This document shows, in pieces, positions 11,081 to 16,806 of a DNA stretch of 47,566 bases (its first letter is position 1; each line of letters opens with the position of its first letter). Location: contig JAJPIR010000336.1 in assembly GCA_021324675.1 (NCBI GenBank), positions 1-47,566 on the forward strand, in the 5' to 3' direction. The DNA is from Actinomycetota bacterium (GTDB lineage Bacteria > Actinomycetota > Actinomycetes > Mycobacteriales > Pseudonocardiaceae). The notes beneath the pieces were generated by a model, which searched no databases, was not told the DNA's origin, and saw nothing but the letters and a program-made list of their open reading frames with translations. The position numbers were made by a program, and so were the translations under genes.

Positions 11081-11767
11081 TTGAGGAAGATCCAGCGGCT
11101 GGTCGCGGTTGGTGCCATGGCGGCGCTGGCCGCCGTGGTCGGCGCATGCGGCAACGCGCAGGCGCCGGCTACCGGAAATCAAGCTTCTGCACCGGCCAGT
11201 GAGCCGGCCGAGACCAGCTCGGAAGCACCTGCGCCCACGGGTAGTGGCGTCACCAAGATCAGCGATATTTTCGGGCCTGCCTGCGATCAGATACCCAAGG
11301 ACGGCCCTGGCTCACCGCAGGGCATGGTCAACGACCCGGTGGCCACCGCTGCCAGCCACAACCCGCTCCTGGCCACCTTCACGAAGGCCCTGACCGCCAC
11401 CAACCTGGCGGACACGTTGAACAGCGCTCCAGAGCTGACCGTCTTCGCTCCGGCCGACCCGGCATTCCAGGCCTTGGAGGCACAGCATCCAGGCATCCTC
11501 AAGGACTTGACCACTGCTCCGGACGTGGCATCGCCGAACAGCAAGCTGGCCAAGATCGTCACCTACCACGCGGTCGGCAAGCGCTACGACGCCGCAGGGA
11601 TCGTGCAGGCGGGCACGCTGGACAGCCTGGAGGGTGGCAGGATCAAGATCGGTGGCAACGCTACGGCGCCGACGGTGAACGGGGCGACGGTGTTGTGCGG
11701 CAACATTCCAACCAAGAATGCCACAGTTTTCGTGATCGGGCAGGTGCTGTCGCTGCCGGCATCGTAA
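11081..11767 (+). CDS. Fasciclin (FAS1) domain lipoprotein, copy 1
   Basis: This 228-residue secreted lipoprotein has a signal peptide MRKIQRL with a hydrophobic core and lipobox VGAC at Cys23, then a low-complexity Ala/Pro/Ser/Glu linker, then one FAS1 domain (about 85-228) with DTLNSAPELTVFAPAD and TYHAVGKRY. The domain resembles mycobacterial MPT70/MPT83, which act at the cell surface in adhesion. A TTG start is chosen because GAGGAG is well placed and the second copy has the same layout. It is a tandem paralogue of 12045-12749. Confidence 0.92.
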   Translation: MRKIQRLVAVGAMAALAAVVGACGNAQAPATGNQASAPASEPAETSSEAPAPTGSGVTKISDIFGPACDQIPKDGPGSPQGMVNDPVATAASHNPLLATFTKALTATNLADTLNSAPELTVFAPADPAFQALEAQHPGILKDLTTAPDVASPNSKLAKIVTYHAVGKRYDAAGIVQAGTLDSLEGGRIKIGGNATAPTVNGATVLCGNIPTKNATVFVIGQVLSLPAS

Positions 11768-12044: not shown

Positions 12045-12749
12045 GTGAGGAAGATCCAGAAACTGGCTGCGGTTGGCGCTTTCGCCACCATTACTGCAGT
12101 AGTGGGTGCCTGCACCAACTCGCAAGGACCCGCCACCGGGAACGAGACGAGTGAGGCGACAAGTGAGGCCTCGCCGCCTGCGGCGCAGGCTCCTGTCACC
12201 AGCGGGGCGCAAGCTCCTAGCGGTAACGGCGTAACCCAGATCGGTGACATCTTCGGCCCGGCCTGCGATCAGGTGCCCAAGCAAGGGCCCGGCTCAGTAC
12301 AAGCCATGGCAGGCGAGCCGGTAGCTACCGCGGCCAGTAACAACCCCGTCTTGACGACGCTGACCAAAGCAGTGAAGGCCGCTAAGCTGACGGACACGCT
12401 GAACAGCACGCCGGAGCTGACCGTGTTCGCTCCGGCCGACTCGGCTTTCCAGCAGCTGGACCGTCAGAGCCCCGGTCTGGTGAACCAGATGACCATGGCG
12501 CCAGACGCAGCGTCACCGGACAGCAGGCTGGTGAAGACCCTCAAATACCACGTGATCGGTCAGCGCTACAACGCCCAGGAGCTGGTCCAAGCCCGGACGG
12601 TGGACACCCTGGAAGGCGCAAAAGTCAACATTGCGGGCACGCCGTCGGCGCCGACGGTAAACGGCGCACAGGTGCTGTGCGGCAACATTCCCACCCGCAA
12701 CGCGACCGTGTTCATCATCGGGCAGGTGCTCACGCCACCGGCCATCTAA
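12045..12749 (+). CDS. Fasciclin (FAS1) domain lipoprotein, copy 2
   Basis: This is a 234-residue paralogue of the preceding gene. It has the same MRKIQ start, a hydrophobic core, a VGAC lipobox at Cys23, a Ser/Ala/Pro-rich linker that is slightly longer, and a FAS1 domain with DTLNSTPELTVFAPAD and KYHVIGQRYN. Even the ribosome-site region is shared (GAGGAGTTGAGA). The duplication is old enough for clear divergence. Its upstream region carries the GATAT iterons, so the copies probably respond to different signals. A hairpin follows the stop. Confidence 0.92.
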   Translation: MRKIQKLAAVGAFATITAVVGACTNSQGPATGNETSEATSEASPPAAQAPVTSGAQAPSGNGVTQIGDIFGPACDQVPKQGPGSVQAMAGEPVATAASNNPVLTTLTKAVKAAKLTDTLNSTPELTVFAPADSAFQQLDRQSPGLVNQMTMAPDAASPDSRLVKTLKYHVIGQRYNAQELVQARTVDTLEGAKVNIAGTPSAPTVNGAQVLCGNIPTRNATVFIIGQVLTPPAI

Positions 12750-12933: not shown

Positions 12934-13653
12934 GTGACGGTGCATCAGCACGGCCGGTACAGCACGCCGGTTGACGACCTGCCGTCTCGGGCCGTACCCG
13001 AAGCGGCGGTCGGTCGTCTCGCGATATACCTGCGGGTACTGACCTCGATGATCGAGCAGGGTGTCACCACAATGTCCAGCGAGGAGCTCGCCGGCGCAGC
13101 CGGGGTGAACTCGGCGACACTGCGCAAGGATCTGTCCTATGTGGGCTCCTACGGCACCCGCGGCGTGGGCTATGACACCGCGAGGCTGGTGGAACATATC
13201 GAGCAGTTGCTCGGGCTGACCCGCCACCACAGCGTCGCGGTGGTCGGGATCGGCAATCTGGGCCATGCGCTGGCCAACTACGGGGGGTTCCCGGACCGGG
13301 GTTTCCCGGTCACCGCGCTGTTCGACGTCGATGAGGATTTGGTAGGCATCCCGGTGGGCGGGCTGCCCGTCGACCACGTCAACACCATTCCGGAGGTATG
13401 CGCGGAGCGGGACGTCACCATCGGGGTGATCTGCACCCCGGCGCGTGCTGCACAAACGGTCTGTGACTTGCTCGTCGCCGGCGGCGTCCGGTGCATCCTC
13501 AACTTCGCTCCAGTGATGTTGCAGGTACCCAGTGATGTCGAGGTACGCCGGGTAGATCTGGCGGTGGAGCTACAGATCCTGTCGTTTTATCAAGCCCGCC
13601 GATCGTCAGGTCGCAGGGCGGGCACCGCCGATCCCGTTGCGGTGATCCGATGA
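12934..13653 (+). CDS. rex: Redox-sensing transcriptional repressor Rex
   Basis: This 239-residue repressor senses the NADH/NAD+ ratio. The N-terminal winged helix (about 20-85) contains [19 protein letters not shown], the DNA-reading segment. The Rossmann domain follows with [11 protein letters not shown] at about 103-113, and a C-terminal domain-swap helix includes [10 protein letters not shown]. It overlaps hemA by 4 nt, so rex and heme genes share a transcript. It probably controls its own promoter through the site at 12828-12845 and respiratory genes elsewhere. Confidence 0.95.
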
Positions 13654-15005
13654 GCCTGCTGGTCGTCGGACTATCCCACCGCAGCGCGCCGGTCGACGTG
13701 TTGGAGCGAGTCGCGCTGTCCGCAGTGGATGCCGGCAAGGTGCTGGGTCAGCTGCTGGAACGCGAGCACGTCGCGGAGGCGTTGCTCCTGTCCACCTGTA
13801 ACCGTGTCGAGGTCTACGCGGTGGTGACCGCCTTCCACGGCGGGCTGGCCGACATCACCGACGTGCTGGCGGGCCAATCCGCGGTTGCGCTGGACGAGCT
13901 GTCCGATCACCTCTACGTCCACTACGCGGCAGCCGGTGTGGAGCACCTGTTCTCGGTGGCCGCGGGGCTCGATTCGATGGTGGTCGGCGAGCCACAGATC
14001 CTCGGTCAACTGCGCAGCGCCTATGCCGGGGCGGAACAGGCGGGCAGCGTTGGCCGGACGCTGCACGAAGTGGTGCAGCAGGCACTGCGGGCGGGCAAGC
14101 GGGTGCATGCCGAAACCGGCATCGACGCTGCCGGTGCGTCGGTGGTCCGTGAAGCGTTGGCTGCGGTGGCGGCCGAGCTGGTGGCGGCTGGTGGGGGAGG
14201 CCTGGCCGGTCGACGGGTGCTCGTGCTGGGCGCCGGTTCGATGGGTGGTTTGGCTACCGCTGCCCTGCGCCGGGCGGCGGTAGCCGAAATCGTGCTGGCC
14301 AACCGCACCCAAGCCAGTGCGCAGCGGCTGGCCGCGCTGTGCGAAGCCGACGGCACCCCGGCCAGGGCGGTCGGACTGCACGAGACGACCGGTGTGCTGG
14401 CCGAGGTGGATGTGGTGATGTGCTGCACCGGTGCTACCGGTGCGGTACTCGGGGTCGACCAGATCGCCAGCGTTGCGGGTGGTCGCCGCAGCCCCCTGGT
14501 GGTATGTGATCTGGGGCTGCCTCGCAACGTCGAGCCGGGGGTAGGGCAGGTGCCCGGCGTCACGTTGCTGGATCTCAGCACGGTGGCACAGCGGCTTGAG
14601 CACCAGGGCTCGGGATCAAGCGCGGTCCGCACCGCACACGACCTCATTGCCCGCGAGGTACGCGATTACCTGGCGGCCCAGCGGGCCGCGGAGGTCACCC
14701 CGACGGTTGCCGCGTTGCGCAAGCGAGCTGCTGAGGTGGTGGACGCGGAACTACTGCGGCTGGCGGGCCGGTTGCCGGACCTCGACGCTGCGGTGCGCGA
14801 TGAACTGGCCCGGACTGTGCATCGCGTGGTGGACAAGTTGCTGCATGCTCCCACGGTGCGAGTCAAGCAGCTCGCTGAGACCGGTGGTGGTGAGGCTTAC
14901 GCCGCCGCCCTGCGCGAGCTGTTCGAACTCGACCCGCAGGCCGCTGCCGCGATCGCGGCGCCGATCCGCCCGGCGTCGAGCGGTGATCCGTCCGGGAGCC
15001 CGTGA
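13650..15005 (+). CDS. hemA: Glutamyl-tRNA reductase HemA
   Basis: HemA makes glutamate-1-semialdehyde from glutamyl-tRNA, the first committed step of C5 tetrapyrrole synthesis. The 451-residue protein has the catalytic cysteine in [10 protein letters not shown] (Cys50), a [10 protein letters not shown] segment near 112, an NADPH-binding GAGSMGG near 193, and a C-terminal dimerisation helix. Its product goes to HemL, encoded 3.7 kb downstream. It starts within the rex stop. The ATG of a 45-codon ORF overlaps its stop by one base, which is where hemC would normally begin. Confidence 0.95.
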
Positions 15006-15142
15006 TGACTGTGCTGCATTCCTCCGCTGGGCCTTGTTTTGTTGGGCCCCATTTCTGTGGAGAGCTGACCGATGCCGGAAACCTCGGCCGCGCGGTCGCG
15101 GCCGAGTTGGAAGGATCTGGCTGCCGCGCGCTGGGTGGTTGA
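15005..15142 (+). pseudogene. 45-codon ORF in the hemC position, possible hemC remnant
   Basis: An ORF begins MTVLHSSAG at an ATG overlapping the hemA stop and ends at TGA 15140-15142. Its second half, GELTDAGNLGRAVAAELEG, resembles from memory the C-terminal helix of porphobilinogen deaminase, while the middle does not. In related actinobacteria a full hemC of about 310 codons lies here. I infer a large internal deletion, or replacement by unrelated sequence; the similarity is short and unproven. Catalytic HemC motifs are absent. Confidence 0.35.
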
Positions 15143-15174
15143 CCCAGCGCTGCGCGACCAGGTCTGGAGACCTG
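15128..15174 (+). terminator. Two adjacent hairpins between hemA and hemD
   Basis: GCGCTGGGT-ggttg-ACCCAGCGC (15128-15150) is a perfect 9-bp stem, and CAGGTCT-gg-AGACCTG (15159-15174) a perfect 7-bp stem. They fill the short gap where hemC is expected. They may attenuate hemD expression or stabilise RNA ends; no T-run follows. Confidence 0.5.
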
Positions 15175-15194
15175 AGTGGGAAACGAGTAGGTAA

Positions 15195-16724
15195 ATGAGC
15201 GTTGTCAGCAAGACCACCGGACGGGTCGCCTTCGTCGGTGCCGGTCCCGGTGCTGCCGGATTGCTCACCGTTCGGGCGCAGCATCTGTTGAGCTGTGCCG
15301 AACTGCTGGTGACTGACCCGGACGTGCCCGCCGACGTCTACGCCACGGCGGCCACGGAGGCCGAAGTCCGCCCCGCGGTGGGGGAACCGGCCGAGGTCGC
15401 CAAGGACTTGATCGCCGAAGCCAAGAACGGGCGGGCCGTGGTGCGGCTGGTCTCCGGAGATCCGCTCACCGCGGACGCCGTGGTCGCCGAGACACACGCC
15501 GTGGTCCGCAGCGCGGTGCCCTTCGAGGTGGTCCCCGGAGTACCCGCAGGCACCGCGGTACCGGCCTTCGCCGGGGTCCCGCTGGGCTCGGGACATGCTG
15601 AAGCTGACGTCCGCGCGGGCGTCGACTGGGCGGCTCTGGCGGCCGTACCCGGACCGCTGGTGCTGCACGCCACCGCGTCGCACCTGGCCGAGGCAGCTGC
15701 GGCACTGGTCGAGCACGGGATGTCCCCGCAGACGCCGGTAGCGGTCACCGCCGCCGGTACCATGCCCACTCAACACACCGTCGAGACCACGCTGGCGTCA
15801 CTGTCCGGTGAACTCGGCGAGCTCGGCGGGCCGCTGGTGATAACCGTCGGCGAGGTGGTCGGGCAACGGGCGAAGCTGTCCTGGTGGGAGTCTCGCGCGC
15901 TGTACGGGTGGAAGGTTCTGGTGCCCCGCACCAAGGAACAGGCCGGGGCGATGAGCGAGCGGCTTGCGGTGCACGGGGCGGTGCCGGTGGAGGTCCCGAC
16001 GATCTCGGTCGAGCCACCGCGGTCGCCGGCGCAGATGGAGCGGGCAGTCAAGGGGCTGGTAGACGGCCGTTACCAGTGGGTGGTGTTCACCTCCACGAAC
16101 GCGGTGCGCGCGGTATGGGACAAGTTCGCCGAGTTCGGGCTGGACGCTCGCGCCTTCGCCGGCGTGAAGATCGCCTGCGTGGGGGAGGCCACCGCGGAGC
16201 GGGTGCGCTCGATGGGCATCGTCCCCGAGCTGGTGCCCTCAGGCGAGCAGTCCTCGGAAGGGCTGCTGGCGGACTTCCCACCGTTCGACGATGTCCTCGA
16301 CCCGGTGGACCGGGTGCTGCTGCCGCGCGCGGACATCGCCACCGAGACGCTGGCCGCGGGGTTGCGTGACCGCGGCTGGGAGATCGATGACGTGACGGCC
16401 TACCGGACGGTGCGGGCTGCACCACCACCGGCCGAAACCCGCGAGATGATCAAGACGGGTGGCTTCGACGCGGTGTGCTTCACCTCCTCGTCCACGGTGC
16501 GCAACCTGGTCGGTATCGCCGGCAAACCGCATGCCCGCACGATCGTGGCCTGTATCGGCCCGGCAACCGCGGAGACCGCCGTCGAGTTCGGCCTCCGGGT
16601 TGACGTCCAACCCGAGGTCGCCCAAGTCGGCCCGCTGGTGGACGCCCTCGCCGCCCACGCTGCGCAGTTGCGCGCCGCCGGCGCCCTGCCCCCACCCCGC
16701 AAAGCCAAAACGCGGCGCCGCTAA
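15195..16724 (+). CDS. hemD: Uroporphyrinogen-III synthase with N-terminal methyltransferase-like domain (HemD)
   Basis: This is the 509-residue actinobacterial fusion. The N-terminal half resembles uroporphyrinogen-III methyltransferase (GAGPGAAGLLTVRA, VRLVSGDPLTADAV, VVPGVPAGTAVP) but departs from the catalytic consensus in several places, as is usual in this group. The C-terminal half, from about residue 235, is uroporphyrinogen-III synthase (VLVPRTKEQAG, VFTSTNAVRAV, FTSSSTVRNL, ACIGPATAET). HemD cyclises hydroxymethylbilane, the product of HemC, so it needs a HemC encoded elsewhere. A Lys/Arg-rich tail ends the protein. Confidence 0.93.
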   Translation: MSVVSKTTGRVAFVGAGPGAAGLLTVRAQHLLSCAELLVTDPDVPADVYATAATEAEVRPAVGEPAEVAKDLIAEAKNGRAVVRLVSGDPLTADAVVAETHAVVRSAVPFEVVPGVPAGTAVPAFAGVPLGSGHAEADVRAGVDWAALAAVPGPLVLHATASHLAEAAAALVEHGMSPQTPVAVTAAGTMPTQHTVETTLASLSGELGELGGPLVITVGEVVGQRAKLSWWESRALYGWKVLVPRTKEQAGAMSERLAVHGAVPVEVPTISVEPPRSPAQMERAVKGLVDGRYQWVVFTSTNAVRAVWDKFAEFGLDARAFAGVKIACVGEATAERVRSMGIVPELVPSGEQSSEGLLADFPPFDDVLDPVDRVLLPRADIATETLAAGLRDRGWEIDDVTAYRTVRAAPPPAETREMIKTGGFDAVCFTSSSTVRNLVGIAGKPHARTIVACIGPATAETAVEFGLRVDVQPEVAQVGPLVDALAAHAAQLRAAGALPPPRKAKTRRR

Positions 16725-16740: not shown

Positions 16741-16806
16741 CCGCAGTCTGGATGCAGACTGGGGTAATCCGGGGCCTGGAAACCGCAGTCTGCATCCAGA
16801 CTGCGG
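16741..16806. repeat. Paired dyads forming a 21-bp perfect inverted repeat between hemD and hemB
   Basis: The sequence at 16741-16761 is the exact reverse complement of 16786-16806. Each arm is itself a small hairpin, CAGTCTG-GATG-CAGACTG in the first and CAGTCTG-CATC-CAGACTG in the second. The arms are therefore both direct and inverted copies, separated by 24 bp. The element starts 17 nt after the hemD stop and ends 34 nt before hemB. It could form alternative RNA structures, act as a terminator, or bind a dimeric protein at two sites. Confidence 0.85.

Follow-up and report, generated by a model that had tools for sequence, protein, structure and literature searches.

Xenologous gene displacement leaves a cell with a distantly related copy of an essential enzyme, the native version of which falls into decay. 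In the Pseudonocardiaceae, the canonical gene for hydroxymethylbilane synthase (HemC) lies in a hemA-hemC-hemD operon, an order present at all 30 family loci that we examined, these being the best-scoring hemC loci of 150 family genomes rather than a random draw. A second hemC occurs in other actinobacteria, among them Nocardiopsis, Streptomonospora, Marinitenerispora and a genus that we call g71. Here we describe a locus from a member of the Pseudonocardiaceae (assembly GCA_021324675.1, contig JAJPIR010000336.1, positions 1 to 47,566, hereafter the window) with the flanking gene order of the canonical operon, in which hemC is cut to about 190 bp. The hemC that the genome does hold, hemC2A, belongs to the same HemC branch as those second copies, at 49-66% identity. 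The gap between hemA and hemD is very probably the scar of an operon hemC that was displaced by a distant copy and then decayed.

Results

The window's hemA gene (13650-15005), encoding glutamyl-tRNA reductase, is intact, with a TIGR01035 score of 381.6 bits against a cut-off of 209.55. The hemD gene (15195-16724) is an uninterrupted open reading frame (ORF) in which a uroporphyrinogen-III C-methyltransferase-like domain is fused to a uroporphyrinogen-III synthase-like domain; like all features of this locus, both genes are on the + strand. Only 189 bp separate them and no hemC ORF lies there, as a first-pass annotation of the window had pointed out. It had also drawn attention to an ORF at the position where hemC should start, and indeed the ATG of this 45-codon frame (15005-15142) begins on the final base of the hemA stop codon. 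The resemblance that it saw between the residues GRAVAAELEG and the HemC C-terminus is real, but these residues are not the end of the ORF, since eight more follow. Residues GELTDAGNLGRAVAAELEGSGCRALGG in the second half of the ORF match the congeners' HemC C-terminus, for example GELTDAENLGRQVAADLLDLGAGTLGA in G138, and only this C-terminal end of HemC is retained. A profile search gave no PF01379 match at the hemA-hemD locus, and the ORF does not carry a PF01379 domain with R11, D84 and C242. Because the 45 residues match no NCBIfam family at E values up to 1, the case for homology rests on DNA alignment. In local alignments of the gap with the gaps of the ten congeners, excluding the last 25 bases and using 300 shuffles per comparison, five congeners gave scores of 80-127, while the best shuffles reached 30-35. 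The matching stretch, at 15045-15164 (from 15008 when aligned with G150), corresponds to the 3′ end of the congeners' hemC, with a score of 102 for G138 (best shuffle 35) and of 127 for G150 (best shuffle 34). It is followed by the hemD start region, gtgggaaacgagtaggtaaatg (15175-15197), which is nearly invariant in the genus (6 changes in 21 columns).

Loss of the operon gene is not confined to the window. Across the 11 genomes of the genus, the hemA-hemD gap measures 189 bp in the window's own genome (G000) and in G080, 215 bp in G151, 277 bp in G152, 434 bp in G121 and 963-1023 bp in the other six. The operon hemC has thus been deleted to a scar in 5 of 11 genomes, with four gap sizes. All five retain the ATG on the hemA stop codon together with the last ~120-130 bp of the gene, in line with the internal deletion that had been one of the options initially considered. 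G080, whose HemD is 96% identical to that of G000, has the same 189-bp gap, with a tail that is 11% diverged. In a tree of HemA and HemD from the 11 genomes and 8 of the 30 family outgroups, the remaining nine form the sister group of G000 and G080 (98%) and are themselves divided into five species with a full-length hemC (100%) and a group of G138, G121, G151 and G152 (99%). This placement indicates that the deletion in G000 and G080 arose independently of that in the G121/G151/G152 group. At least two independent hemC deletions have therefore occurred in the genus. One to three deletions account for the latter group; G121 joins G151 and G152 at 52%, and these deletions could be nested.

A search of the whole genome, as the first-pass annotation had suggested, returned one PF01379 match (234.4 bits) and one PF03900 match (44.3 bits), both in hemC2A (C325:3692-4615). 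The protein scores 318.9 bits against the TIGR00212 equivalog (cut-off 164) and shares only 34-39% identity with the genus's operon-type HemC. Using the numbering and the catalytic and cofactor residue set of the Escherichia coli enzyme, HemC2A retains R11, S13, D46, K55, K59, G60, F62, K83, D84, R131, R132, R149, N151, R155, R176, R206, R232 and C242. In our trees, which have long branches, uneven composition and sampled rows only, hemC2A forms a separate deep branch and so falls outside the native clade, while the operon hemC of the genus nests, on a long branch, with the canonical hemC of the family. The nearest row to hemC2A is that of G187, a member of a different family in the same order (66% identity, grouped with 100% bootstrap). 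Ten of the 11 genus genomes encode hemC2A, nine at full length and one, G153, as a 275-residue fragment that lies at the edge of a contig. In all six contigs examined of these ten an SDR gene lies near hemC2A, and FKBP and ferredoxin-type neighbors are each present in five of the six. These shared neighbors fit one ancestral gain followed by vertical descent. Separately, a third deep HemC type, hemC2B, is encoded by 3 of the 11 genomes (G151, G138 and G152; L040, L042 and L043), the G152 copy scoring 269 bits against TIGR00212.

The six remaining genomes (G138, G150, G153, G048, G002 and G102) have a full-length hemC ORF between hemA and hemD, and all of these copies are altered. Residues aligning with E. 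coli positions 55-62, including G60 and F62, are missing from all six and from the G121 remnant. S13 is replaced by Gly and N151 by Asp in 6/6 copies, R11 by Gly in five, and R149 by Gln, His or Asp in five; the sixth copy, that of G138, instead has Trp at R232, and C242 is lost in G153. The 30 canonical family copies conserve S13, G60, F62, N151, R11, R149, R232 and C242 without exception (K55 and K59, not conserved in these 30, were left out of the count). For the E. coli enzyme, a simulation study places the active-site loop at residues 42-60, and the substitutions R11H, R149H and R232H are reported there to be detrimental (PMC3945110). Of the features that would mark an active HemC, the operon copies of all six congeners lack the loop region with G60 and F62 as well as one or more of the catalytic arginines. 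As a separate observation, a 15-bp minisatellite encoding PYSDG-like repeats, located 5′ of the sequence for the HemC C-terminus, expands in the altered operon copies (1 to 5 units by eye; L083, L087 and others), and a trace of it, SAGPCFVGPHFCG, is left in the G000 remnant.

Despite these losses, the altered genes are under purifying selection. None of the six has a stop or frameshift. Pairwise ratios of nonsynonymous to synonymous substitution (dN/dS) are 0.15-0.32 for the operon hemC, compared to 0.12-0.28 for hemA, 0.05-0.13 for hemD and 0.07-0.19 for hemC2A. Under a codon model of the five species already lacking R11 and R149, omega is 0.171 for the operon hemC, 0.097 for hemA and 0.038 for hemD, with 0.053 for hemC2A in four of those species; for the operon hemC, fixing omega at 1 costs about 88 log units when the best of three kappa values is taken. 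In a rough neutral simulation, which relied on branch lengths judged by eye, ignored indels, took a single equilibrium GC content per run and treated lineages as independent, the chance of staying stop-free was 0.08-0.45 per lineage, and the product over six lineages was ~2e-4 at an equilibrium GC of 0.75, 1e-5 at 0.65 and 3e-3 at 0.85. The low omega and the improbable stop-free persistence suggest that the altered protein is probably still useful to the species that keep it at full length. This gives weight to a rival reading in which the congeners' copy is not inactive but changed in function, as a partner of HemC2A or HemD or as a regulator, and in which its loss from the window species is a matter separate from displacement. 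We consider this reading a serious contender but give it somewhat less than an even chance, given that 5 of 11 genomes do without the operon copy and that hemA and hemD are under stronger constraint.

The retained tail has some structure of its own. The 9-bp and 7-bp hairpins initially reported are both present: hairpin 1 (15083-15106; 9-10 bp) derives from the LGR..AAE codons of hemC, and hairpin 3 (15159-15174; 6-7 bp) is perfect in the window but not conserved in the alignment. Between them lies a further hairpin that had gone unmentioned, hairpin 2 (15126-15153), in which GCGCTGGGT and ACCCAGCGC form 9 bp plus 2 outer pairs; its core inverted repeat occurs at two places in the genome. Hairpin 1 has 9/9 pairs in G000 and 7/9 in G151 and G152, where the isolated segments still fold as hairpins. 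The RNA of 15003-15230 folds with a z-score of -2.21, matched or bettered by 5 of 200 shuffles. Hairpin 2 has the slowest-changing arms of the tail, with 5 changes on the tree in 23 columns, compared to 12 in 18 for the arms of hairpin 1, 23 in 11 for loops and 63 in 67 for other columns (random-column P 0.00013 for hairpin 2, for columns picked after folding). At third codon positions, there is 1 change at 8 sites inside the arms of hairpin 2 versus 45 at 30 elsewhere. The tail is less diverged than the fourfold sites of hemD in 10/10 pairs of deletion genomes (0.110-0.313 vs 0.222-0.412), which argues for modest constraint on it. As for pairing itself, hairpin pairs form in 96.8% of alignment cells, but this is no better than shuffles (500/500 as good for percent paired, 407/500 for the covariation score), and none of 20 hairpin pairs has changed on both sides; with RNAalifold, both sides had changed in 4 of 38 pairs, which lie in a further stem. 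No terminator or promoter was found in 14900-15300.

The kept tail may help to link the expression of hemA and hemD, and a function of the retained ends in translation from hemA to hemD, or in mRNA processing, is speculative. A fuller proposal would have the native HemC pass through a stage as a selected pseudoenzyme with a new role, such as aiding hand-over to HemD, and would have its 3′ end survive the loss of the gene as an RNA element acting in cis on the hemA-hemD message, either to couple or to process it. The scar would then be functional. We regard this combination as rather unlikely. That the ORF and hairpins instead form a conserved small gene, or a conserved RNA, with no relation to hemC is very improbable: the arms of hairpin 2 do change little, but the stretch aligns within the coding end of the congeners' full-length hemC, and an Rfam scan of the gap gave one chance match at 23.9 bits, nowhere near the gathering score of 89. 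Frames also differ among the remnants, the product of the start-codon frame being 45 residues in G000, 56 in G080 and 45 in G151, where another frame of the tail is read; a conserved small protein at 15005-15142 was rejected for this reason.

Genes of the hemC2A type extend well beyond the genus. Besides the window's own, 39 of 394 genomes of the class have matches to hemC2A at 49-66%, at 41 places in all, with the next matches at 46% or less; in other families, these relatives are often a second hemC. A collection of named genomes holds 12 hemC2A loci, nine of them from metagenome-assembled Pseudonocardiales or Pseudonocardiaceae (84-95%) and the others from Marinitenerispora, Streptomonospora and Nocardiopsis (50-53%). 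A parallel to the window's case is found in genus g70 of family f20. Of its five genomes, three have a hemC2A-type gene (58-59%) as their sole PF01379 match, and two have the canonical gene alone, intact and between hemA and hemD. In the three carriers, the hemA-hemD interval contains only HemC-like pieces, two in different frames in G415 and G455 and one in G471 (L166-L168). Presence of hemC2A and a broken operon gene are thus associated, with 3/3 carriers broken and 2/2 non-carriers intact. The three carriers are 81-88% complete and may share one event, and the interval itself is assembled in each.

These comparisons leave little room for the two other options that had been raised for the missing gene. 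Draft genomes do invite the suspicion that about 0.8 kb between hemA and hemD was lost in assembly or binning, but this is very improbable because G080, a separate genome, shares the 189-bp gap with a diverged tail and G151, G152 and G121 have deletions of other sizes at the same site; the fragmented genes of family f20 at the corresponding site also speak against it. Simple relocation of the operon hemC can be dismissed with similar assurance: there is a hemC elsewhere in the genome, on C325, but it is of another deep branch, the remnant stayed at the locus, and six congeners carry both types (five with full-length hemC2A, G153 with the fragment).

Displacement followed by decay must still be weighed against several observations that do not favor it. 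The genome is a draft of 364 contigs (5.63 Mb, 95.09% complete). HemC2A has Cys at S81 in 10/10 rows and Ala at S129 in 8/10, and in simulations of the E. coli enzyme both serines are in contact with the pyrrole chain (PMC3945110). G151 (87% complete) has no hemC2A match, its sole hemC match being hemC2B. In all four outside carriers checked (G154, G155, G156 and G187), and unlike in the window, a canonical hemC is kept between hemA and hemD; hemC2A alone is therefore insufficient to force the loss. Finally, both operon copies scanned exceed the TIGR00212 cut-off of 164 (G138, 210.9 bits; G002, 201.0 bits), and the operon copies keep K83, D84, R131, R132, R155 and R176. For these reasons, the inactivity of the operon copies is something that we infer.

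A few further features of the window were recorded. The name of HemD relies on its two domains, whose best NCBIfam scores (125.2 and 118.5 bits) are below the model cut-offs (198 and 275, respectively); the N-terminal methyltransferase-like domain, with the 125.2 bits against its curated cut-off of 198, may be degenerate in the family. The hemB and hemL genes were identified solely by ORF reading. Between hemD and hemB (16744-16803), an 18-bp palindrome-like motif, CAGTCTGNATNCAGACTG, occurs twice, with 2 matches at up to 3 mismatches where 0.17 are expected, a number reached in 2 of 100 shuffles. Just upstream of the rex-hemA region are two adjacent genes for similar secreted proteins (11081-11767 and 12045-12749), putatively fasciclin-like as judged by eye.

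Discussion

The course of events that we favor is as follows. An ancestor of the genus would have held hemC2A, a second and distantly related hydroxymethylbilane synthase gene, beside an SDR gene, and hemC2A would have taken over tetrapyrrole synthesis. HemC2A is the putative source of the cell's hydroxymethylbilane. The operon hemC, relieved of its job, would then have lost the active-site loop region and catalytic residues, persisting in six sampled congeners as a protein that is selected but probably without activity. The lineage of the window would have lost almost the whole gene to an internal deletion, which spared the start codon at the hemA stop, ~120-130 bp of the 3′ end with its hairpins, and the hemD start site. 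This order of events is presumed, as is the arrival of hemC2A by transfer; an ancient duplication with losses may be its origin instead.

If so, the replacement of a core heme enzyme has been caught at several stages within one genus, as a broken but selected ORF, a partial deletion and a scar, and is accompanied by a second case in another family. This makes it possible to ask whether a HemC with broken catalysis is of any use within the operon, and why the two ends of the gene last longer than its body. It is also a warning for annotation, as an operon hemC may owe its name to a family score and yet be inactive, with the working enzyme encoded at another place. No description of such a case was found among the titles and abstract openings returned by our searches of open-licence papers, which is no proof of absence. 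Set against xenologous gene displacement as generally conceived, the genus differs in two respects. In some species, the native copy persists as a full-length operon ORF that is apparently broken yet under selection, and elsewhere in the genus the native hemC has been cut to a scar that keeps both of its ends.

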